64,000 bases of DNA. Origin: an uncultured Bacteroidota bacterium. Its GTDB lineage: Bacteria; Bacteroidota; Bacteroidia; Flavobacteriales; Flavobacteriaceae. Of this stretch, positions 5,077 to 64,000 are shown in pieces. The DNA lies in contig CACMJT010000003.1 of assembly GCA_902614065.1 (NCBI GenBank), positions 113,389 to 177,388 of the forward strand, read 5' to 3'. The first letter of the stretch is position 1; each line of letters begins with the position of its first letter. A program made the position numbers and the translations under genes. Under the pieces are notes generated by a model. The model worked only from the letters and a program-made list of their open reading frames with translations, did no database searches and was not told the origin of the DNA.

Positions 5077-8000
5077 TTAACTTATTTTCTTTATTTCTAA
5101 TTCTAATTTTATATTATCAAACTCAAACTCTTTTGGTAAATCCAATTTATTTACAAAATTTACTTCAGCAGCTAGAGTCTCATTTTTGACATAGTCTAAA
5201 TTATCCTCTAGAGCTTTTTCAATCAAATTATTATTGACAATATTAATAATAATTTTATCACTAACATTAAAGTTTGAATCTTTTCTTAAGTTCTGAATTT
5301 TATTAACAATTTCTCTACTAATACCTTCATTTTTAAGCTTGTCGTTAATGTTGACATCCAGCGCAATCGTGTAGCCATTTTCAGACCCAACTTGCCATCC
5401 TTCAATATCTTCATAGAACACTTCGATGTCTACCAATGATAGATCAAATGAAAAATTGTCTAATTTAAATTGGAGGGTCTCACCAATTTCTAATAAATGA
5501 ATTTGTTCACCACTCAAATGAAAAATTGTCTTTGAAACAGTTTGTATATTTTTTCCAAATTTTGGACCCAAAGATTTAAAATTAGGTTTTGCTTTCTTGA
5601 CTAGAATTTCAGATGAGTCGCTAATTAATTCAACCTTTTTTACATTAATTTCGGATTTAATAAAGTCCTCAATTTCTAAAATTTCGCTCTTTTCACCTGA
5701 GTTTCTAAATGGAATTAAAACTTTATTTAGAGGCTGTCTAACCTTAATTTTCTCTCTTTTTCTAATTGAGAGAGCAATTGAACAAATAATCTGAGATTTT
5801 TTTATTTTCTTTTCAAGCTCAGAGTCAATATTGTGAATATCAACTTTTGGAAAGTTCGCCAAATGAACAGAGTTGTCATCATTAGTTAAATCTTGAAAAA
5901 GTTGGTCCATGTAAAAAGGACTTATTGGTGACGAAATAATAGCAATCTTTGTTAAACACTCATGTAGTGTTTGGAAGGCAGATATTTTTTCATCGTTATA
6001 TTCACCTTTCCAAAAAACTCTTCTTGATAATCTTACATACCAATTACTTAGGTCGTCTTGGACAAATTGAGAAATCAATCTTGACGATTTTGTTGGATCA
6101 TAGTCTGCATATGCAGATTCAACTTTTTGAATTAATGAGTTTAAACCTGAAATGATCCAGCGGTCCAGTTCTCTTCTTGACTCATAAGGAATCATAACTT
6201 CATTTTTGTCGTATCCATCAATGTTTGAGTACAAACTAAAAAAAGCGTAGATATTGTAAAGTGTACCAAAGAATTTTCTTCTAACTTCATCAATGCCATT
6301 CAAATCGAACTTTAAATTTTCCCACGGGTTTGAATTTGAAATCATGTACCATCTTGTTGCATCAGGTCCAAATTTTTCCAAGGTTTCAAAAGGATCCACT
6401 GCGTTACCAAGTCTCTTAGACATTTTTTGCCCGTTCTTGTCCAAAACCAATCCATTTGATATAACATTTTTGTATGAAATTGAATTAAATATCATTGTGC
6501 TAATTACATGCAAAGTGTAAAACCACCCTCTCGTTTGATCTACACCCTCTGCAATATAATCAGCTGGAAAATGTGATTTTGAGTCAATCATTTCTTTATT
6601 TTCAAATGGATAATGCCATTGGGCATATGGCATTGATCCAGAGTCAAACCATACATCAATTAGGTCTGCTTCTCTATACAGGGGGTTACCACTTTTTGAA
6701 ACCAAAATAATTTCATCTACAATATGCTTGTGAAGATCAATTTTTTCATAGTTGGATTCGGAGAAATCATCCACAACAAACTTAGAAAAAGGGTTTTTCT
6801 TCATAAACCCCGATTGTATTGATTTTTCAATTTCAGTATAAAGTTCTTTAACAGAACCGATAACTAATATTTCTTTACCATCCTCTGAGCACCAAATTGG
6901 TAGAGGAATTCCCCAATATCTAGATCTTGATAAATTCCAATCATTTGCATTTTCAAGCCAATTTCCAAATCTTCCAGTTCCAGTGGACTTTGGTTTCCAA
7001 TTGATTTTTTTATTATACTGAATTAAATCACTTTTTCTTTTTGTTACTGCAACAAACCAAGAATTTAGTGGATAGTAAAGAATTGGCTTGTCAGTTCTCC
7101 AACAATTTGGATAACTGTGTGTATATTTTTCAACTCTGAACGCTTTATTCTCTTCTTTTAATTTTATTGCAATTTCAACATCAACTGATTTTTCTGGTAC
7201 ATCTTTTCCATTGTAATATTGATTCTTGACATATTTTCCAGAAATTGACCCCAAACCATCTATAAATTTTCCTTGTAAGTCAACAAGCGGGGACAAATCA
7301 CCATCTTTATTTAATATAAGCATTGGTGGGACCTCAGGTTTTGCATTTTGTGCAGCTATCATATCATCTGCACCAAATGTTGGTGCTGTATGCACAATTC
7401 CAGTTCCATCATCAGTTGTTACAAAATCTCCAGATATTACGCGAAACGCATTCTCAGGATTTTGACTGGGTAAGGGTGAGTCTGTCCATAGTTTCTCATA
7501 TTTGATATTTATCAAATCACGTCCTTTAAAATGTTCACAAATTAAAAATGGAATATCATTGTTTTTTGAAAAAATCAGTTCCTTAGTTTGCTTAACTTCT
7601 CTATAATTATTCTTTAAAACTTTTTCAATCAAATTTTTTGCTAAAACGACATTTATTGCCATTTCTGTATACTGATTAAAGGTTTTGATAATTACATAAT
7701 CAATATTAGCTCCAACCGTTAGAGCTGTATTCGACGGAAGGGTCCATGGCGTAGTTGTCCACGCTAGAATATGTACAGAACCGTATTTTTTTAAAAATTC
7801 TGGCAATGATTTTTCTAAGCATTTAAACTGAGCAGTTACAGTAGTATCAGTTATGTCCTGATAAGTTCCGGGTTGATTAAGTTCATGAGAGCTTAATCCT
7901 GTTCCAGCTTTTGGTGAGTATGGTTGTATGCTATAACCTTTGTATATCAGTCCCTTTTCATGAAGCTCTTTTAAAAGCCACCAAACAGACTCAATATATT

Positions 8001-8460
8001 TTGATTTGTACGTAACATATGGGTTTTCCATATCAACCCAGTAACCGATTTTTCTTGTCAAATCATTCCATATGTTGGTATATTTCATCACAGCATCTTT
8101 ACAACTTTTATTGTAGTCTTCGATACTAATTTTAGTACCAATATCTTCTTTGCTTATACCCAGCTGTTTCTCAACACCCAGTTCAATAGGAAGCCCATGG
8201 GTATCCCAACCTGCTTTTCTTTCAACTTTGAACCCTTTTAAAGTCTTATATCGACAAAAAATATCTTTTAAAGCACGGGCCATGACATGATGAATTCCAG
8301 GCTTACCGTTTGCGGATGGAGGGCCCTCGAAGAATACAAAACGCTTTGAATCATTTCTTGATGATATACTTTTTTCGAAGGTTTTATCTTTATCCCAAAA
8401 TCTTAAAACATCATCTGAGATTTGAATTAAATCTAAACTTTTATATTCTTTAAATGACAT
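5077..8460 (-). CDS. ileS: Isoleucyl-tRNA synthetase
   Basis: IleRS charges tRNA-Ile and edits mischarged Val. The 1127-residue length fits the long IleRS type. The class I signatures are present: PSANGKPGIHHVMAR (HIGH-like) near residue 50 and KMSKRLGN near residue 690. Editing-domain motifs HILAWTTTPWTLPSN and DGTGIVHTAP are also visible. A C-terminal anticodon-binding and DUF5915-like region follows. It is the first gene of the operon ileS-dksA-like-DUF1338-lspA. The 55-bp leader shows no T-box structure. Confidence 0.98.
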   Translation of the reverse strand: MSFKEYKSLDLIQISDDVLRFWDKDKTFEKSISSRNDSKRFVFFEGPPSANGKPGIHHVMARALKDIFCRYKTLKGFKVERKAGWDTHGLPIELGVEKQLGISKEDIGTKISIEDYNKSCKDAVMKYTNIWNDLTRKIGYWVDMENPYVTYKSKYIESVWWLLKELHEKGLIYKGYSIQPYSPKAGTGLSSHELNQPGTYQDITDTTVTAQFKCLEKSLPEFLKKYGSVHILAWTTTPWTLPSNTALTVGANIDYVIIKTFNQYTEMAINVVLAKNLIEKVLKNNYREVKQTKELIFSKNNDIPFLICEHFKGRDLINIKYEKLWTDSPLPSQNPENAFRVISGDFVTTDDGTGIVHTAPTFGADDMIAAQNAKPEVPPMLILNKDGDLSPLVDLQGKFIDGLGSISGKYVKNQYYNGKDVPEKSVDVEIAIKLKEENKAFRVEKYTHSYPNCWRTDKPILYYPLNSWFVAVTKRKSDLIQYNKKINWKPKSTGTGRFGNWLENANDWNLSRSRYWGIPLPIWCSEDGKEILVIGSVKELYTEIEKSIQSGFMKKNPFSKFVVDDFSESNYEKIDLHKHIVDEIILVSKSGNPLYREADLIDVWFDSGSMPYAQWHYPFENKEMIDSKSHFPADYIAEGVDQTRGWFYTLHVISTMIFNSISYKNVISNGLVLDKNGQKMSKRLGNAVDPFETLEKFGPDATRWYMISNSNPWENLKFDLNGIDEVRRKFFGTLYNIYAFFSLYSNIDGYDKNEVMIPYESRRELDRWIISGLNSLIQKVESAYADYDPTKSSRLISQFVQDDLSNWYVRLSRRVFWKGEYNDEKISAFQTLHECLTKIAIISSPISPFYMDQLFQDLTNDDNSVHLANFPKVDIHNIDSELEKKIKKSQIICSIALSIRKREKIKVRQPLNKVLIPFRNSGEKSEILEIEDFIKSEINVKKVELISDSSEILVKKAKPNFKSLGPKFGKNIQTVSKTIFHLSGEQIHLLEIGETLQFKLDNFSFDLSLVDIEVFYEDIEGWQVGSENGYTIALDVNINDKLKNEGISREIVNKIQNLRKDSNFNVSDKIIINIVNNNLIEKALEDNLDYVKNETLAAEVNFVNKLDLPKEFEFDNIKLELEIKKIS

Positions 8461-8515
8461 TTTCTAAAAAAAGCGAATGTAATTAATTTAGCTTAAAGTT
8501 AAGATTAATTAGTGC

Positions 8516-11023
8516 TTAATTAAAAAAAGCAGAAATATTAAAATTTCTACCAGGCGAACTAATGCCCGAAGCGAATTGTTTATAGTGTATATCAAATACA
8601 TTTTCAATTGAAAAATTTAGATCAATTAGCCTTTTGAAAATTTTTACTTTATGAACAGATGTTAAATTAAAAATAGCCCATTTTGGCATTCCTAAATATT
8701 CAAAATCGCCACTATCATTAATAAAATAAGGTGTTTCATCCAATCCATCCTCACCACCTAAACTATAACTTTTGGCTTTTTTGTTCTTTGAAAACTTATA
8801 TGCTAAAACTAATTGATTGTCAGAATATTTCCACTTTAATTTAAAATCTCCGAAAAGAGGAGGAATTGATGGCATGGGGCTTCCCGAACTTAGTTTTGTC
8901 CCCTTTGTGTATGTTATATTACCATCAAGATGGATATTTTTAAAAACATTTAAATCAATATTATAGTTGAAACCATAAACTTTTGACTGACCTAGGTTAT
9001 AATTAGCCATCGTAAAAACTTCCTCATTTTGGTAAATAATTGTTGCTGTATTAGGTGTTGTTTCGTCTATACTATCATAGAAAAAATCTCTTCCTATTGT
9101 TCCATCTAAAATTGTATAATAAATATTTAATGATGAATTAAAATTATTTGAGTAATTGCTCCAACCAAGATCTATCGTATAGGCTTTTTCAGGCTTTATT
9201 TCTGTATTTGGAATTAGTAAAATACCGGCATTTTCTCGAATCTTACTTATATCATCAATATTTGGTGATCTATAACCGCTTGATAAATTAATCGAAACTT
9301 TATTATTCTTCAATATTCTCGTAACATAACCAAAGCTACCAGTCAGTGATAAGTTTCTCAAATTCAACCTTTCGAATTGATTTAAAAAAATCACATTAAT
9401 ATCGTTATTCAAAAATTCTTCTGAATTAAAATCCCACCCAAGCTTGACACTATTATTTGACAGCCTCAATCCAAAATTTAAGTTTGAATAATTATTAATT
9501 TTTTTTAAATATTTAAAATAACCCGCAAGTGATGAGTGAGTTGCTTGATCATTAGGATATCGCGTAAGCGACTTAAATTCACTTAAATACAGACTCGGGT
9601 TTGAGGTGTCAATTCTATTTGAAACAGATCTAGAGTATAGATTGTTGTGAGTGTATTCAAAGCCATATAATAACTCTGAGTCATTTATTATAGTTTTAGA
9701 AAAGTCACCATTTATAGAGTAAACATCTAGTTTTTCCGTTTGATTGTGTAAAATTTCTGAACCAAATTTTCTTTTATGCCTGGATTCTCCAATAGATTGG
9801 TAAGAAAAAATAAACCTCCCATTGTCAAAAAGTTTTGATGGACTTAAGTTTAAAATAGAGGATAACATAGTTCTTTTTTGAGGTCCATAATACCACTCAG
9901 CAAATTTTAAATCGGAGTTAGAGTCTAATTCTGATAATTTATCAAATCTGTTAATTTTTGAGGACCTAGAGACTTGAAAATTTAGAATCAAATTGGAGTC
10001 ATTCTTAAGCTTTAAATTAACTTTTGTTATAAAATCTTTCTGATCATAAGCGGTATTTCTTTGAACATTAGGGTCACTATTGACAGATGGACTTAAAAAA
10101 AAGTTATCTCTGTTATTTTCTGAAAAATGGTTAACTAATCCCCAATCCTCAAATCCATGTTTTCTATTTTTACCCATAATTATATCACCATAGTCTGAAA
10201 TTGACAGACTTGAAAATAACGCCCAATTTTTATTAGTAGTAGTAAGTTGGTAGTTTCTTGTTTTTGATTTATTTGTAAGATTATACGAACGCTTCTTTTT
10301 AAAATCAATTTCTTTTTCAACAGAAAATTCAGGAATTTTTGTAAAGTAATGCACTACGCCTCCTATAGCGTCAGATCCATAGCTTACTGATGAAGGTCCA
10401 TACAAAACCTCAATTCTTTCTAAGTAATTTGGATCAACAGTTATGGAGTTTTGTAAATGACCTGAACGGTATATTGTATTATTCATCCTAACTCCATCAA
10501 TTACTAACAATACTCTATTCGCTTCAAAACCCCTGATCACTGGGCTACCTCCACCAGATTGTGATTTTTGAACATGTATTCCACCCGCTTCATATAGAAT
10601 TTCAGCACCAGTTTTATCTACATTGGATAAAAGGTCATCGGGGCTTATTAATGTCACTTTTCTAGAAATATATTTTAAGTTTTGCTTATTTCTACCAACA
10701 GATAAAACCACTTCATCAAGCCCCATCATCGATGAATTTAGATAAATAATATTTTTGTCTTTTATATCCTTAAAAAGAACGGAATTTGATTCATATGAAA
10801 TGTGTGAGAAAAAAATCGAATCGTTAACTTTAAAAATATCCAAATCAAACTTACCCCTATTATCAGTCAGGATTGATTCTGTTTGATTTTTGTTAAAAAC
10901 CAATACTGAAGGAATTGGTTCTCCACTTGAACCATCTAATACAGAAATTTCGGTCTGGGAATAATTGAAGTTTATAATTGTAAAGCTTACTAGGAATAGT
11001 AATATTTTATGAAAATAATCCAT
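8516..11023 (-). CDS. TonB-dependent outer-membrane receptor, CirA/heme-receptor-like
   Basis: This is an 835-residue outer-membrane transporter with a signal peptide (ending ..NFNYSQTEI). A carboxypeptidase-like regulatory domain (about residues 25-105; SVLDGSSGEPIPSVLVFN) is followed by a plug domain containing GGGSPVIRGFEANRVLLVID and YGPSSVSYGSDAIGGVVHY, then a 22-strand-type barrel to the terminal aromatic residues (FNISAFFN). The plug resembles heme/siderophore or vitamin receptors more than SusC glycan receptors, and no SusD gene is adjacent. Its start overlaps recO by 17 bases, a pairing I recall from other Flavobacteria. The substrate is unknown. Confidence 0.9.
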   Translation of the reverse strand: MDYFHKILLFLVSFTIINFNYSQTEISVLDGSSGEPIPSVLVFNKNQTESILTDNRGKFDLDIFKVNDSIFFSHISYESNSVLFKDIKDKNIIYLNSSMMGLDEVVLSVGRNKQNLKYISRKVTLISPDDLLSNVDKTGAEILYEAGGIHVQKSQSGGGSPVIRGFEANRVLLVIDGVRMNNTIYRSGHLQNSITVDPNYLERIEVLYGPSSVSYGSDAIGGVVHYFTKIPEFSVEKEIDFKKKRSYNLTNKSKTRNYQLTTTNKNWALFSSLSISDYGDIIMGKNRKHGFEDWGLVNHFSENNRDNFFLSPSVNSDPNVQRNTAYDQKDFITKVNLKLKNDSNLILNFQVSRSSKINRFDKLSELDSNSDLKFAEWYYGPQKRTMLSSILNLSPSKLFDNGRFIFSYQSIGESRHKRKFGSEILHNQTEKLDVYSINGDFSKTIINDSELLYGFEYTHNNLYSRSVSNRIDTSNPSLYLSEFKSLTRYPNDQATHSSLAGYFKYLKKINNYSNLNFGLRLSNNSVKLGWDFNSEEFLNNDINVIFLNQFERLNLRNLSLTGSFGYVTRILKNNKVSINLSSGYRSPNIDDISKIRENAGILLIPNTEIKPEKAYTIDLGWSNYSNNFNSSLNIYYTILDGTIGRDFFYDSIDETTPNTATIIYQNEEVFTMANYNLGQSKVYGFNYNIDLNVFKNIHLDGNITYTKGTKLSSGSPMPSIPPLFGDFKLKWKYSDNQLVLAYKFSKNKKAKSYSLGGEDGLDETPYFINDSGDFEYLGMPKWAIFNLTSVHKVKIFKRLIDLNFSIENVFDIHYKQFASGISSPGRNFNISAFFN

Positions 11024-11726
11024 TTAAAATTTCGAGTGAGTTTGGTCTTTTAAAACCTGAAATATGATATTTATAATAATTCATTAAAAAATCTGTCATA
11101 TTTCTTCTTTGATTGGTTGTTTTTAATATCTCGAAATATTGATCAAAATTTATGCCCAAAAGTTTTTTGAACTCAATCACCAACTCACCTCCAACACAGT
11201 ACCGCGAATCATTAATTGTCTTAAAAATACCATTCTCAATATCAAAAAATTTACAATTTTCATTGCTTGCCTCCGGTTTAATTCCAAAAAATTTTAAAAG
11301 ATTTATTAAAAAATTGATATGAAAATTTTCATATTTTGAGATTTTGTCCAAAGTAACAAGAGAATCTTTAATATACTGATAAAGACTAATGTTTTCCTCT
11401 TGAAATCGTAAAACAGTACTCAAAAACTCCGCAAGAAATAGTGCTATGTTGGATTTAATAATATTAAAACGTAAATCATCATAAATAACAATACTTTTAA
11501 TATTTTTTAAATGTGATAATTCACCTTTTTTAAGTCTATTAAATTCAATCTCAACAACACTCAGGGGCTCTATGCTGCTTAACGAAAATTTTGTTCTTTT
11601 TCTACTCCTTACACCTTTAATAATAAAAGATAGAATTCCATAATTTTGAGAATAACATTTCATGATTACGCTCGTTTCAGAGTATTTTATAGAATTTAAA
11701 ATAATTGCCTCAGTAACGCTAGCCAT
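11007..11726 (-). CDS. recO: DNA repair protein RecO
   Basis: RecO anneals ssDNA and, with RecR, loads RecA at gaps. The 239-residue protein has the N-terminal OB-fold signature (EAIILNSIKYSETSVIMKCY, then GILSFIIKGVRSRK) and a helical C-terminal domain. The zinc-binding Cys quartet of some RecO proteins is incomplete; only NENCKFF and RYCVGG remain. It lies 5 bases after gdhA and overlaps the TonB receptor gene, so it is probably in the same transcript. Confidence 0.93.
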   Translation of the reverse strand: MASVTEAIILNSIKYSETSVIMKCYSQNYGILSFIIKGVRSRKRTKFSLSSIEPLSVVEIEFNRLKKGELSHLKNIKSIVIYDDLRFNIIKSNIALFLAEFLSTVLRFQEENISLYQYIKDSLVTLDKISKYENFHINFLINLLKFFGIKPEASNENCKFFDIENGIFKTINDSRYCVGGELVIEFKKLLGINFDQYFEILKTTNQRRNMTDFLMNYYKYHISGFKRPNSLEILNGLFS

Positions 11727-11731
11727 GAATT

Positions 11732-13072
<1,341 letters not shown>

Positions 13073-13104
13073 TTAGATTGATTATTGTCTAAATGTAAGC
13101 AATA

Positions 13105-14244
13105 TTAATTAATTGCTTTGTCAAGATCGTTTACTAGGTCAGCTGAATCTTCAATACCAACACTTAATCTAATTAAAGACTCTGTAATACCATTTCTTTC
13201 TCTGTCCTTTTTTGGCATTGAAGCGTGCGTCATAGTTGCAGGATGATTGACTAAACTTTCGACACCGCCCAGGGATTCAGCGAGTGTGAAAACCTTCAAT
13301 TTTTTTGTGAATTTTACAACATCGCTATACATATTCCCAGCAAAAGTAAAGGATATCATACCTCCAAATTTTTTCATCTGTTTTTTTGCTACTAAATGAT
13401 TTGGATGAGATTCTAGACCGGGCCAATATATTTTTTCAACTTTTTTACATTGCTTTAAATATTCAAAAACTTTTTCCCCATTAGAGCAATGTCTATCCAT
13501 CCTGACATGAAGTGTTTTTATTCCCCTTAGGGTGAGGAATGCATCCATTGGTCCACATATTGCACCACTAGAATTTTGTATAAAAAATAGATTCTCGGCT
13601 ATTTTTTCATCATTTAATGCAATTAACCCAATTATAACATCACTATGCCCAGCTAAATATTTTGTTCCCGAGTGCATAACTATATCAGCTCCTAAATCTA
13701 AAGGTCTTTGAAGATAAGGGGTAGAGAATGTATTATCAACTCCAAGTAGAATATTATTTTTTTTGCATAATTCGGATATCGCAGCAATATCAATAACATT
13801 AATCATGGGGTTTGTGGGGGTTTCAACCCATATCAACTTTGTTTTGGGGGTAATTAATTTTTCAACTTTTTCTAGATCTTTTAAATCCTCAAAAATAAAC
13901 TTAAGACCATATTTCTTATAAATTTTGTTAAATAATCTGTAAGATCCACCATACAGATCGTGAGTACTAATTATTTCGTCCCCAGGTTTAAATAATTTTA
14001 AAATTGCATCGATTGCACTTAGCCCAGAGCTGAACGCAAGACCATACTTTGCATTTTCTAAGCTTGCAATGGAGTTTTCAAGTGCATGCCTTGTCGGATT
14101 TTGTGTTCTGCTATACTCGTAACCTTCATGAACACCAGGCTCAGATTGAGCATAAGTAGATGTTTGGTATATAGGTGGCATTACGGCACCATACCCTTTT
14201 TCTTTTATCTGTCCACCGTGAATAACCTTTGTGTTAAATTTCAT
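13105..14244 (-). CDS. Cystathionine gamma-synthase/lyase family PLP enzyme
   Basis: Trans-sulfuration enzyme of the Cys/Met metabolism PLP family. The PLP-binding Lys lies in HSGTKYLAGHSDV. Other signatures are YSRTQNPTRHALE, the GLAFSSGLSAIDA loop and the substrate-binding end LAESLGGVESLVNHPATMTHAS. The track ORF starts at 14298, but the ATG at 14244 (MKFNTKVIHGG) matches the family and shares one base with the azurin stop codon (TAATG), so I use it; this gives 379 residues. Synthase (Met synthesis) versus lyase (Cys synthesis) cannot be decided from sequence alone. It is translationally coupled to the azurin gene. Confidence 0.93.
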   Translation of the reverse strand: MKFNTKVIHGGQIKEKGYGAVMPPIYQTSTYAQSEPGVHEGYEYSRTQNPTRHALENSIASLENAKYGLAFSSGLSAIDAILKLFKPGDEIISTHDLYGGSYRLFNKIYKKYGLKFIFEDLKDLEKVEKLITPKTKLIWVETPTNPMINVIDIAAISELCKKNNILLGVDNTFSTPYLQRPLDLGADIVMHSGTKYLAGHSDVIIGLIALNDEKIAENLFFIQNSSGAICGPMDAFLTLRGIKTLHVRMDRHCSNGEKVFEYLKQCKKVEKIYWPGLESHPNHLVAKKQMKKFGGMISFTFAGNMYSDVVKFTKKLKVFTLAESLGGVESLVNHPATMTHASMPKKDRERNGITESLIRLSVGIEDSADLVNDLDKAIN

Positions 14245-14738
14245 TATTCTATTGTTAATTCCCCTTGCATGATTTGATAATGTCCTGGAAATGTACATAC
14301 ATATGTGTAAATACCCGGCTCTTCAATTGTGAAATTTATTGTCTCACTTTCACCACCACCAAGCATTTTTGTATGAACAATGAGGTCATTGTTTTCAGGA
14401 ATGTATTCATTCTCCTTAAAATCAAGTGCAAGCATTGCAAAATCATCAACGTCAACATCTTTTTTCAGTAAAACAAAATTATGTCCCATAAATTCTTTTC
14501 CGATTTTACCTGTATGATTTAAAGTAAGCCTTATATTTTTCCCAGCCTTTGCCGACAATGATGTTTTGTCAAAAAGCATGAGGTCATTTGAATTTAAAAC
14601 AATAATTGTTTGTTCAGCACTTTCAATTTTTTCCACATCTTCCTGAACCCTTTCGTAACTAAATTTTTCCTTGGCAGGTTCATTTTTACATGATACTATA
14701 AATAGCATTAATAATAGAGGAATAATTTTAATTTTCAT
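14244..14738 (-). CDS. Azurin-like blue copper lipoprotein
   Basis: Small periplasmic electron carrier. From the ATG at 14738 the protein has 164 residues and begins with a lipoprotein signal (MKIKIIPLLLMLFIVSCKNE; lipobox IVSC). The type 1 copper site is complete: His in MGHNFVLL, then Cys-x4-His-x3-Met in CTFPGHYQIM, the spacing of azurin. The track ORF begins at 14903, upstream of the signal peptide, and is over-extended. It probably passes electrons to an oxidase or reductase, but no partner is adjacent; SCO1 lies 46 kb away. The plus-strand sugar cluster diverges from this gene over about 73 bp. Confidence 0.94.
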   Translation of the reverse strand: MKIKIIPLLLMLFIVSCKNEPAKEKFSYERVQEDVEKIESAEQTIIVLNSNDLMLFDKTSLSAKAGKNIRLTLNHTGKIGKEFMGHNFVLLKKDVDVDDFAMLALDFKENEYIPENNDLIVHTKMLGGGESETINFTIEEPGIYTYVCTFPGHYQIMQGELTIE

Positions 14739-14811
14739 CAAAGGATTTATTTTTATAAAGTTACAATTCATAATTAAATTTTTATATTTAGAAGAACTTA
14801 AAATATTTATT

Positions 14812-15747
14812 TTGAATAGAAGAAATTTTTCAAGTTTGTTATCATCATCATTATTAGGTTTGGCTTCTTTAGATGCAATTAAAACAAACAATTTTAGTGC
14901 CAAAAAATATAAAATTTCATTGGCTCAGTGGTCAATTAATGGTTCCATATCTAGGGGTAAAATTTCTCCAGTAGATTTTGCAATAAAGGCAAGAGAGTTG
15001 GAAATTGATGCTATTGAACATGTAAACACATTGTATTCGGATCGTTCAGATTATTTATCAAAAAATTCGATGAAAACTCTTGTTAAGGATTTAAATTCAA
15101 GGGCTAATGATAATGGAGTTAAAAACTTATTGATTATGATTTCCCAAGAAGGTGAATTAGCATCTGGTACTCAAAATTCAAGAACAAAAGCTATAGATAA
15201 TCACAAGGCCTGGATTGATGTTGCTAATGAAATTGGTTGTGAGTCTGTCAGAGTAGATTTAAGGGGAGGTAATAGTTTTGATCAATGGAAAGAAAACTCT
15301 ATTCTGTCCTTAAATACTTTGTGCGAGTATTCACCTAACCTAAATATTACCGTAGAGAATCACGGTGGTTTTTCATCAAACGGGAAGTATTTGGCTGATG
15401 TAATGAAATCAATCACTAAAGAAAATTGTGGAACATTACCTGATTTTGGAAACTTTTGTATTAATGGAAAACCTAATCCTACAGGTTTAGAACCTTGTTT
15501 TGAGTGGTATGATAGGTACGAAGGAATTAATGATTTAATGCCATTTGCTAAAGCTCTCAGTGCTAAATCTTATGATTTTCTAGACAATGGTGATGAAAAA
15601 TATATTGATTATTATAAAATGATGAAAATAGTTAATAATCATCCATATGAGGGATACATTGGAATCGAATATGAAGGAAATCGATTGAGTGAAGACGAAG
15701 GAATTATTGCAACAAAAAAGTTATTAGAAAAAATTATAAACTCATGA
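14812..15747 (+). CDS. Sugar phosphate isomerase/epimerase-like TIM barrel, probable Tat substrate
   Basis: I place the start at a TTG (14812), giving 311 residues with the N-terminus MNRRNFSSLLSSSLLGLAS, a twin-arginine-type signal. The track ORF begins 141 bases earlier inside the antisense azurin gene and would lose this signal. The body is an AP-endonuclease-2/xylose-isomerase-like TIM barrel (KISLAQWSINGSI; NITVENHGG; YIGIEYEG). Such proteins act as sugar isomerases or epimerases, often in the metabolism of unusual or oxidised sugars. The stop codon overlaps the next isomerase gene (ATGA). The substrate is unknown. Confidence 0.85.
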   Translation: MNRRNFSSLLSSSLLGLASLDAIKTNNFSAKKYKISLAQWSINGSISRGKISPVDFAIKARELEIDAIEHVNTLYSDRSDYLSKNSMKTLVKDLNSRANDNGVKNLLIMISQEGELASGTQNSRTKAIDNHKAWIDVANEIGCESVRVDLRGGNSFDQWKENSILSLNTLCEYSPNLNITVENHGGFSSNGKYLADVMKSITKENCGTLPDFGNFCINGKPNPTGLEPCFEWYDRYEGINDLMPFAKALSAKSYDFLDNGDEKYIDYYKMMKIVNNHPYEGYIGIEYEGNRLSEDEGIIATKKLLEKIINS

Positions 15748-19661: not shown

Positions 19662-19832
19662 ATGAAAAAACATCTAAAAAGAAATTGGACTGTATATACA
19701 ATCGGTGCTTTTGGTGGATTGATTTCTTTAGAAAAACCAGATTATTGGTGGGTCTATATTATTGTTTTTGGTTTTGTAGTTGGTGCTATTGATATATATT
19801 TCACAAAGGATAAAAAGAAAGATGATAAATAA
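19662..19832 (+). CDS. Tiny two-helix membrane protein A (56 aa), not in the ORF track
   Basis: An ATG-started frame 19 bases after nadD encodes 56 residues. The architecture is a basic N-terminus (MKKHLKRNW), two hydrophobic segments (about residues 11-23 and 29-47) and a charged tail (KDKKKDDK). It aligns by eye with the next ORF over its whole length (N-terminal K/R then N.W, a G-containing first helix, I.YF then Lys-rich end), suggesting tandem duplication. I recognise no family. The signal-free, Lys-capped hairpin suggests an inner-membrane protein. Confidence 0.6.
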   Translation: MKKHLKRNWTVYTIGAFGGLISLEKPDYWWVYIIVFGFVVGAIDIYFTKDKKKDDK

Positions 19833-19877
19833 CCTAGAACTTTCTAGTAAACTACTTTCTTTTTAATTTTGTTTTAT

Positions 19878-20045
19878 ATGAAAGAATCTTTTAGAAAAAA
19901 TGCTTGGAGATTTTTTGTTGCTTTTGTTATTGGCCTCACATTAAGCAGTTATGGAATGTCAATTTGGGAGACAATGTCGATAATTTTCGTAATTGCCATA
20001 ATCGTAGAATCCATAATTTATTTCAAAACCAAGAAAAAGAAATGA
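19878..20045 (+). CDS. Tiny two-helix membrane protein B (55 aa), not in the ORF track
   Basis: This ATG frame encodes 55 residues starting MKESFRKNAWRF, with two hydrophobic segments (about 11-27 and 30-48) and the tail YFKTKKKK. It resembles the preceding ORF and overlaps the following one by ATGA. The ORF track instead shows an over-extended frame (19904-20242) running through it in another frame. No family is recognised; the coupling and conserved layout make it likely to be real. Confidence 0.58.
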   Translation: MKESFRKNAWRFFVAFVIGLTLSSYGMSIWETMSIIFVIAIIVESIIYFKTKKKK

Positions 20046-20242
20046 ATAAATATTTAAGAAAATTTTTAAAAACATTAATTGTAATGATTTTGGTATTTAT
20101 TCCCTTAATCATTGCTAAAGAAATATTTGATTTTGAACTAAAATGGTGGCAATTTTTGATATATTTTTTAATTGCTTTTGAGATTTGGGATTTTATTTTT
20201 GATGTAATTAAAGAATTTACAAACGGAGATTTTTCTAAATAA
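20042..20242 (+). CDS. Tiny membrane protein C (66 aa)
   Basis: The correct start of track ORF 19904-20242 is probably the internal ATG at 20042, which forms an ATGA junction with the preceding gene. The product has 66 residues: basic N-terminus (MNKYLRKFLK), a first helix (about 11-28), a Trp-containing second helix (KWWQFLIYFLIAFEIWDFIF) and a short acidic/basic tail. It is the third member of the small-protein string after nadD. Function unknown. Confidence 0.62.
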   Translation: MNKYLRKFLKTLIVMILVFIPLIIAKEIFDFELKWWQFLIYFLIAFEIWDFIFDVIKEFTNGDFSK

Positions 20243-62757: not shown

Positions 62758-62831
62758 TCCTCCTTAGCTCAGTTGGTTAGAGCATCTGACTGTTAATCAG
62801 AGGGTCCTTGGTTCGAGCCCAAGAGGAGGAG
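62758..62831 (+). tRNA. tRNA-Asn(GTT)
   Basis: Acceptor stem TCCTCCT/AGGAGGA, D arm TAGCTCAGTTGGTTAGAGCA, and anticodon stem TCTGA/TCAGA around the loop CTGTTAA (anticodon GTT). The T-arm is CTTGG-TTCGAGC-CCAAG. Length 74 with discriminator G; CCA is not encoded. Confidence 0.97.
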
Positions 62832-62860
62832 CAAGCGAAACCGCTACACTGCATATTCTT

Positions 62861-62887
62861 AAAGCCCACTGAAAAGGTGGGTTTTTT
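62861..62887 (+). terminator. Rho-independent terminator of tRNA-Asn
   Basis: Stem AAAGCCCAC/GTGGGTTTT (9 bp including one G-T pair) with a 7-base loop, followed by T residues. It lies 29 bases after the tRNA. Confidence 0.85.
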
Positions 62888-62952
62888 CTTTATCAGTACT
62901 TTATATTGAACGTAACTTAAAAGTATAAAATTCTTGGCAACTATATGGCAAT

Positions 62953-62998
62953 TGAAAAAACTTGATTATTCAAGATTGAAAAACTTTGATTAATCAAA
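62953..62998 (-). terminator. Tandem hairpins ending the small-protein operon
   Basis: Read on the minus strand, the palindrome TTTGATTAATCAAA is followed by GTTTTT, then CTTGA-ATAA-TCAAG is followed by TTTTTT. The second is a clear intrinsic-terminator shape. Both lie downstream of the last tiny ORF (ends at 63050). Confidence 0.7.
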
Positions 62999-63049
62999 CT
63001 TTAACTTAAATATTTTTATCTGTAAATGAAACTTTTTTTCAAAATTATG

Positions 63050-63196
63050 TTAATCCTTTTTGGAATTCTTTTCTAATTGGTGTATCATCATACAAATTAG
63101 GGAAACTATTAAGGCATATACATACTCTTGACTAGTAAGAGAATAGAGAAAGATTATGATTAGCAGAACCCACAATGCATTTTTGACAATCTTCAC
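63050..63196 (-). CDS. Tiny membrane protein E (48 aa), not in the ORF track
   Basis: A GTG-started frame of 48 residues begins MKIVKNALWVLL, with two hydrophobic segments (about 8-20 and 25-39) and a charged tail (EKNSKKD). It begins 17 bases after the previous stop. A short motif (EYVYA) recalls EKYIYAEA of the first member of this string. No family recognised; the last gene before the tandem hairpins. Confidence 0.5.
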   Translation of the reverse strand: MKIVKNALWVLLIIIFLYSLTSQEYVYALIVSLICMMIHQLEKNSKKD

Positions 63197-63213
63197 AAAT
63201 CAGATTTTTTCAT

Positions 63214-63360
63214 TTACAACCAAGATTTAACCTCAATATTCAGTTGAATAGCATTATACAAGAGTATTAGCATCCAAATTAGAAATAAGAATGCTAACCA
63301 CTGTTTCCAGTACGTTCTGAGACAGAGCTTGACTTTAAAGTAGTTGTATATTTTTTTCAC
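63214..63360 (-). CDS. Tiny membrane protein D (48 aa), not in the ORF track
   Basis: A GTG-started frame of 48 residues, coupled to the preceding gene by a GTGA overlap. It has a basic N-terminus (MKKIYNYFKVKLCLRTYWKQ), one TM (about 21-37) and a short tail. Position, overlap and composition support it; no family recognised. Confidence 0.5.
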   Translation of the reverse strand: MKKIYNYFKVKLCLRTYWKQWLAFLFLIWMLILLYNAIQLNIEVKSWL

Positions 63361-63515
63361 AATATTAAGTTTGCAAACCAATACCCAAATTTTGCACCAA
63401 GTTCAAATGCCCATTGTATAATACCAAACCACCATAAAATTGAAAAAGTTATTGCACCCAATAACAAGTTTAGCCAAAAGTCTTTACTTGTAAAATCTGG
63501 GATTAGTTTTTTCAT
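63357..63515 (-). CDS. Tiny membrane protein C2 (52 aa), not in the ORF track
   Basis: An ATG-started frame of 52 residues (MKKLIPDFTSKDFW) overlapping the upstream 71-aa ORF by ATGA. It has a hydrophobic segment (about 15-32) and a Trp/Phe-rich amphipathic second half (WWFGIIQWAFELG). No family recognised. Confidence 0.55.
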   Translation of the reverse strand: MKKLIPDFTSKDFWLNLLLGAITFSILWWFGIIQWAFELGAKFGYWFANLIL

Positions 63516-63727
63516 TTTTTCCAATTGTAATTTTTCATTCTGCTTTGAGAACCTTTCTTTCGTTTTGGTTGTTTCTCTCTTTCATTTGAGTGGTTTCTTG
63601 AGTAGTAGTATTTGTTGTCCAATAACTCTTTCTCTTTTCGAATATTCTCCTGTTTCATTTCCCATACAAAAGACATTAAATAGACCAGGGATATAATCAC
63701 ACCTATTAAAAAGATTATTATATTCAT
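63512..63727 (-). CDS. Small single-TM protein with basic tail (71 aa)
   Basis: This is the only member of the right-hand string listed in the ORF track. It has a TM at about 2-20 and then a strongly basic, polar tail (KQPKRKKGSQSRMKN) that could bind nucleic acid or phospholipid. It joins both neighbours by ATGA overlaps. No family recognised. Confidence 0.62.
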   Translation of the reverse strand: MNIIIFLIGVIISLVYLMSFVWEMKQENIRKEKELLDNKYYYSRNHSNEREKQPKRKKGSQSRMKNYNWKK

Positions 63728-63900
63728 TTTTTCTTTTTCTTTAAATAGTATTCATATGCATTAGCAAAACAAAGAATTGAAATTCCAAACATATTTATGG
63801 CCTCAGCATATATATACTTTTCCTTGTAAATGCCAAAAAAACCATTTGCAAGAAGAGCAATTAGAAGTGTAATATAAAACATAAACCACTTTTTATTCAT
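63724..63900 (-). CDS. Tiny two-helix membrane protein (58 aa), not in the ORF track
   Basis: An ATG-started frame of 58 residues: MNKKWFMFYITLLIALL, a second hydrophobic segment (about 35-50) and the tail YYLKKKKK. It has the same basic-hairpin-Lys tail layout as the three ORFs at 19.66-20.24 kb. It overlaps the 71-aa ORF by ATGA. Confidence 0.58.
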   Translation of the reverse strand: MNKKWFMFYITLLIALLANGFFGIYKEKYIYAEAINMFGISILCFANAYEYYLKKKKK

Positions 63901-63915
63901 ATAATCATTATTTTT

Positions 63916-64000
63916 TTATTTAGTTAACCAACTAAAAGTATTTAAAACAAAGTTTTTCCAATCATATCCCACAGTGTTCATTCCAGCATACATTTTATTA
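63916..64000 (-). CDS. Possible 3' end of a gene running off the right edge (partial)
   Basis: A minus-strand frame open from the window edge to a TAA at 63916 encodes ..MYAGMNTVGYDWKNFVLN.. and ends SWLTK. Aromatic-rich, about 28 residues visible; the family is not recognised. It would be the gene upstream of the small-protein string. Confidence 0.4.
   Translation of the reverse strand, partial: NKMYAGMNTVGYDWKNFVLNTFSWLTK

Follow-up and report, generated by a model that had tools for sequence, protein, structure and literature searches.

The five tiny membrane-protein genes that lie end to end at 63050-63900 (-) of the window, the 64,000-nt stretch of DNA analysed here, are probably a mosaic of single-gene cassettes exchanged by recombination at short repeats around their start codons. 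By comparison with related genomes the five are real and conserved genes, and the string that they form is built of single-gene blocks that occur at differing places and in differing orders in relatives. The window lies at the end of a contig of 177 kb from a draft genome (G000) of 1.36 Mb, and the string has rseP and tRNA-Asn as neighbours. The tRNA-Asn(GTT) gene (62758..62832, +), downstream of rseP, is the fixed edge of a variable slot.

The five reading frames

The five minus-strand frames of 48-71 residues that an earlier note on this DNA had described were confirmed at their exact coordinates. Frame o1 (63724..63900, -) encodes 58 aa with two predicted helices and a K-rich C-terminus, and o2 (63512..63727, -) encodes 71 aa with one membrane helix and a basic tail. 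Frame o3 (63357..63515, -) has 52 aa when read from the overlapping ATG; in the ORF list it has 55 aa, from an upstream TTG. Frame o4 (63214..63360, -; 48 aa) takes its GTG start from the TTGTGA end of o3, and o5 (63050..63196, -; 48 aa) also starts with GTG. The overlaps ATGA (o1/o2, 63724..63727, -), ATGA (o2/o3, within AAAAAATGAAAAAACT, 63505..63520, -) and GTGA (o3/o4, 63357..63360, -) were found as reported, as was the gap of 17 nt that separates o4 from o5. This gap is spanned by a mini-ORF of six codons, MKKSDL* (63193..63213, -; ATGAAAAAATCTGATTTGTGA), which abuts the TAA of o4, overlaps the GTG of o5, and is likely the remnant of a gene start; G013 carries a similar remnant, TAAATGAAAAAACTGATCAT, after o4. 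All five frames contain the hydrophobic segment ascribed to them; its hydropathy over 19 residues is 1.9-2.9, and its length suffices for a membrane helix. The 3' end of a further minus-strand ORF (63917-64000, -; ending in NTVGYDWKNFVLNTFSWLTK*) lies about 16 nt upstream of o1, and the rest of this ORF is cut off by the contig end. Because the window stops at the contig end and another minus-strand ORF lies upstream, the string may be longer than five genes.

When chains were defined as runs of ORFs on one strand, each 45 aa or longer and separated by gaps of -10 to +20, the observed chain had five members, and the longest in 5000 dinucleotide shuffles had three (2 shuffles). Chains of at least four ORFs occurred in 0 of the 5000, in agreement with the claim that such a series of couplings is not expected by chance. 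Two AT-rich terminator-like hairpins with T-runs (62985-62998 and 62961-62974, -) close the string in the sequence. The tandem hairpins of the earlier note are visible with their T-runs, but a terminator scan that requires G+C lists only the tRNA terminator (62861-62885) near the string end, and the stretch that holds the hairpins (62940-63049) folds with a z-score of only -1.6.

Homologues, selection and structure

Where homologues were compared, the frames are kept open in congeneric marine Flavobacteriaceae. The most widespread is o2, present in ten genomes at 71-92% identity; the GTDB relatives that carry it are genomes from marine single cells and metagenomes (AG-..., MED-G60, MED-G118). 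Frame o1 is known from three genomes, with 84-86% identity in G011 and G019, where it stands in other contexts, and o3 from two, with 94% identity in G011 only. Between the window and G011, o3 differs by 3 nt and the adjoining o2 by 20 (Fisher p 0.004). Frame o4 occurs in two genomes at full or near-full length, besides partial copies: the homologue in G013 (L031) is 94% identical, has an ATG start and lies elsewhere in the genome, and G021 (L036) has the C-terminal half of o4 on a different N-terminus. Fusion to the TTGTGA end of o3 accounts for the change of the o4 start from ATG in G013 to GTG in the window. Frame o5 is found in four genomes and is 79-81% identical to an ORF directly behind nadD in G009, G013 and G021.

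Pairwise dN/dS was 0.12-0.38 for o1 and 0.07-0.17 for o2, and o5 gave 0.24-0.30 when compared with its copies behind nadD; these are rough Nei-Gojobori values on 48-71 codons, with o3 and o4 offering too few differences for a selection test. Frames o1, o2 and o5 thus show purifying selection, and for these three the support that the earlier note had hoped for, homologues with dN/dS below 1 in related genomes, was obtained. Frameshifts or stops in relatives, named there as refuting evidence, are absent from the full-length homologues of o1, o2, o3 and o5; for o4 an in-frame stop was seen in two weak partial matches. Matches to o2 and o5 from a family-wide search outside the genus were weak or contained stops, and were not trusted as homologues.

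AlphaFold2 predicted two helices for o1 (3-23 and 28-57, pLDDT 73) and a single long helix for o2 (2-51, pLDDT 71) with a loose basic tail, moderate-confidence models that support helices only. As had been said of the family, which was not recognised, none of the five proteins had a match above cut-off in Pfam, NCBIfam, PHROGs or PADLOC; weak scores of LapA, holin, SP24 and YxzE type fell below cut-off and look like single-helix noise. Small bacterial membrane-protein families have fewer than 80 aa and one or two membrane helices, are usually unannotated and are often horizontally mobile. The string is unlike the known families in its tandem array and its start-codon junctions.

Gene order and insertion sites

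The five-gene order of the window was found in no relative, and only the pair o2-o3 recurs (G011); all the genomes are drafts from single cells or metagenomes, with a completeness of 55-87%, and absences of genes or recombinases from them are soft. Since no relative shares the order and o1, o4 and o5 stand elsewhere in other company, the genes do not form a conserved five-gene operon. The tRNA-Asn slot of G011 holds o1, a 175-aa DUF2911 protein, o2, o3 and a different 65-aa membrane ORF; the 528-nt DUF2911 gene (Pfam), absent from the window, is placed exactly at the o1/o2 ATGA. A sister genome has a different gene at the o3/o4 GTGA, after GTGAAAAAAA, and the sequence at the o2/o3 junction is a recurrent cassette boundary. 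G019 has o1 and o2 in its tRNA-Asn slot, 2 kb apart among other cargo. In G009, G013 and G021, o2 stands immediately in front of an S9 peptidase, close to tRNA-Arg, and the o5 homologue directly behind nadD. Several further families of tiny membrane ORFs behave in the same way in these slots, and another genus has a distant o1 homologue (L099) with similar tiny ORFs in a comparable island behind rseP. Similarity among the scattered homologues is bounded by the ORF ends.

The string had been called an operon, and what stands of that description is a set of real, same-strand membrane-type genes coupled by start and stop, but not a conserved five-gene unit in relatives. A true functional operon, in which five small membrane subunits work together and are co-translated through the ATGA couplings, would agree with the common strand, the couplings, a chain beyond chance and the o2-o3 pair kept in G011, but the full set is present in no other genome and o5, o4, o2 and o1 occur singly or in other company, which makes this reading quite unlikely. 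The ATGA and GTGA overlaps are better read as being partly recombination junctions, left by insertion of gene-sized segments at ATGAAAAA starts. Consecutive frames in different phases, all hydrophobic, could also be what frameshifts have left of a single larger membrane protein in decay; against this, every frame is conserved with a start and a stop of its own, and most are found elsewhere without the others. Such decay is very improbable in general, and for o1, o2 and o5 it is refuted by their scattered homologues and by purifying selection. Least probable of all are chance ORFs in AT-rich intergenic DNA, for which the high A+T content and a hydrophobic codon bias would speak, but which are ruled out by the shuffles and by dN/dS well under 1 for three of the five frames.

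Single-gene cassettes, the preferred reading, can be followed at empty and occupied sites. The slot behind nadD is empty in G011, G018, G010, G006 and G017, where the intergenic sequence is uninterrupted, and is occupied by o5 in G009, G013 and G021 and by three other tiny membrane ORFs in G000. The latter form a second string in the window (19662..20242, +), before a MoxR ATPase, with ORFs of 56, 55 and 66 aa (19662-19832, 19878-20045 and 20042-20242, +). The 66-aa ORF resembles an ORF beside the o4 homologue in G021 (L036 4906-5154). The start of the S9 peptidase is empty in G000 and G011, reading CGAATTTATTACATTTATACGT-ATGAAAAAATTTGCA, and is occupied in G021, reading CGAATTTATTACATTTATAACA-ATGAAAAAACTCCTTTTTAA-[o2]-ATGAAAAAACTGTTC. 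Direct repeats ATGAAAAAAyT flank o2 at this site in G013 and G021, and G009 has the same insertion with a diverged downstream copy, ATGAGGGGATT. Comparison of the empty and occupied sites therefore places o2 exactly at the start codon of the host gene, in sense, between direct repeats. In seven relatives (L046, L047, L014, L048, L052, L025 and L037) a seven-codon mini-ORF, MKKLLxK*, precedes o2 and its TGA overlaps the ATG of o2; we take these mini-ORFs to be remnants of interrupted gene starts, with a leader function possible. Beside tRNA-Arg in G009, AATTTATTACATTTATAACAATGAAAAAACT is present twice, 1.6 kb apart (L048 ~5890-5922 and ~7530-7565), bracketing small ORFs as if it had been duplicated by insertion.

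A stop/start overlap around A-TGAAAAA(AcT) forms the boundary between units. Of 69 slot genes, hand-picked by eye from variable regions, 24 start with ATGAAAAAA, vs 2 of 43 window genes outside this set (Fisher p 1.6e-4). As ATGAAAAAA is also a natural start in AT-rich flavobacterial genomes, the junction pattern may partly reflect selection on translation signals together with illegitimate breakpoints. Several secreted proteins of the cargo have no relationship to each other after residue 25 and yet share signal-peptide DNA, for example ATGAAAAAACTAATTCTACTATTACTATTTATTCC. In non-homologous pairs that agree at 11-15 of 15 residues, the codon was identical at 202 of 282 positions with the same residue vs 112 predicted from codon usage (ratio 1.80), and control pairs with few identical residues gave a ratio of 1.03; the start region is therefore shared at the DNA level and not by convergence alone. 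This sharing among unrelated secreted proteins suggests exchange of the 5' ends of genes. Near-identical signal peptides (MKKLILLLLFIPLVSFGQ) were seen at L033 3148-8328, L043 2258-3082, L036 3963-4787 and L052 14321-15001. The strict signal-peptide pattern had few matches across the genus, because the repeat varies. In G078, of another genus, an island behind rseP (L191 6308-14009) contains many tiny membrane ORFs, and each of four unrelated genes there stands behind a longer 5' module, ACCAACATACGATATGAAAAA.

Routes of exchange and significance

Under the cassette reading each unit would encode a small integral membrane protein and occupy a flexible slot between tRNA-Asn and the neighbouring cargo, and recombination at the start-codon repeats is well supported. 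Imported or rearranged gene-sized DNA would be gained, lost or swapped at the repeats A-TGAAAAA(AcT) around the starts, which are often extended into a repeat that codes for a signal peptide. Since the repeat holds both the previous stop (A-TGA) and the next start (ATG-A), exchange can leave the stop-start junction intact: a new unit would land in sense, its stop forming part of the next start (ATGA or GTGA), and the array would stay translatable by termination-reinitiation. RecA-dependent or microhomology-mediated exchange of imported DNA is the most likely route, favoured because the tyrosine recombinases found in G000 are limited to XerC- and XerD-like ones. A more specialised cassette system of marine Flavobacteriaceae, with the coding start as the recombination site and an unknown recombinase or dedicated uptake, is unlikely; its repeat would extend from the stop of the preceding gene, across ATGAAAAAACT, to the signal-peptide codons, and whole genes would be inserted singly, frame-neutral and translationally coupled.

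Also unlikely is an integron-like array, in which a dedicated site-specific recombinase would recognise the start-codon repeat and move the cassettes. The units are gene-sized and share one orientation, direct repeats flank one of them, the repeat is common to unrelated genes, and the longer module of G078 stands before four different genes; against this, the boundary repeat is short and variable, and the only PF00589 genes of G000, two in number, score best as XerC and XerD. No integron integrase (IntI) was found in the G000 draft (87% complete); the two genes scored 114.5 and 103 bits against integrase_gron (cut-off 265). There are no RYYYAAC...GTTRRRY pairs, as in attC sites, in 62841-64000, and the junctions fold no better than shuffles. 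A classical integron is thus unsupported. Like integron gene cassettes, the units of the string are single-gene, co-oriented and exchangeable; unlike them, they abut by overlapping stop and start, without intergenic recombination sites.

Tycheposons were first described in Prochlorococcus. The string resembles them in its variable slot flanked by a tRNA gene, its turnover of cargo and the small marine genomes concerned, but the mobile unit here is a single tiny gene, found also at slots without a tRNA (nadD), the junctions lie at start codons and not at tRNA ends, and no element integrase was found in the G000 draft. Among streamlined marine bacteria, the Methylophilaceae are described as having flexible islands and tycheposons at their tRNA genes (PMC10872708). 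Variable cargo adjoins tRNA-Asn in G000, as in a tRNA element; an element tyrosine recombinase is absent from the part of the slot within the contig and could lie beyond the contig end, as does the far border of the slot. G014 and G016 have a tyrosine-integrase gene at tRNA-Asn and a duplicate of the 3' part of the tRNA 9-10 kb away, so larger tRNA-targeting elements use the locus too. These elements of 9-10 kb lie at L034 ~7700-15575 (G014) and L033 2795-12995 (G016), and the cargo of the G014 element seems to include a type I restriction-modification system. Relatives of o1, o2, o3 and o5 were not found in IMG/VR, phages and plasmids had no DNA match to the string, and the signal-peptide repeat was absent from viral contigs; a viral origin was rejected on these searches.

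With regard to the role of the proteins, our best guess, a tentative one, is that they are dispensable accessory proteins of the inner membrane, of an exclusion, stress or immunity type. Their neighbours among the slot cargo include a PspC-domain protein, hydrolases and TPR proteins, and in G014 the putative restriction system, which fits a general flexible-island role. The open-access literature contained no description of start-codon cassettes, of strings of small membrane ORFs or of the exact signal peptide, although such descriptions may exist elsewhere. Insertion at the start codon that supplies the previous stop would be a simple route by which an operon is extended without being broken, and many stop-start overlaps now taken as translational coupling may be recombination scars. 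If a dedicated recombinase took part, gene arrays would be built in a novel way. Here, tiny, unannotated membrane-protein genes of genome-reduced ocean bacteria behave as mobile cargo of the smallest kind.
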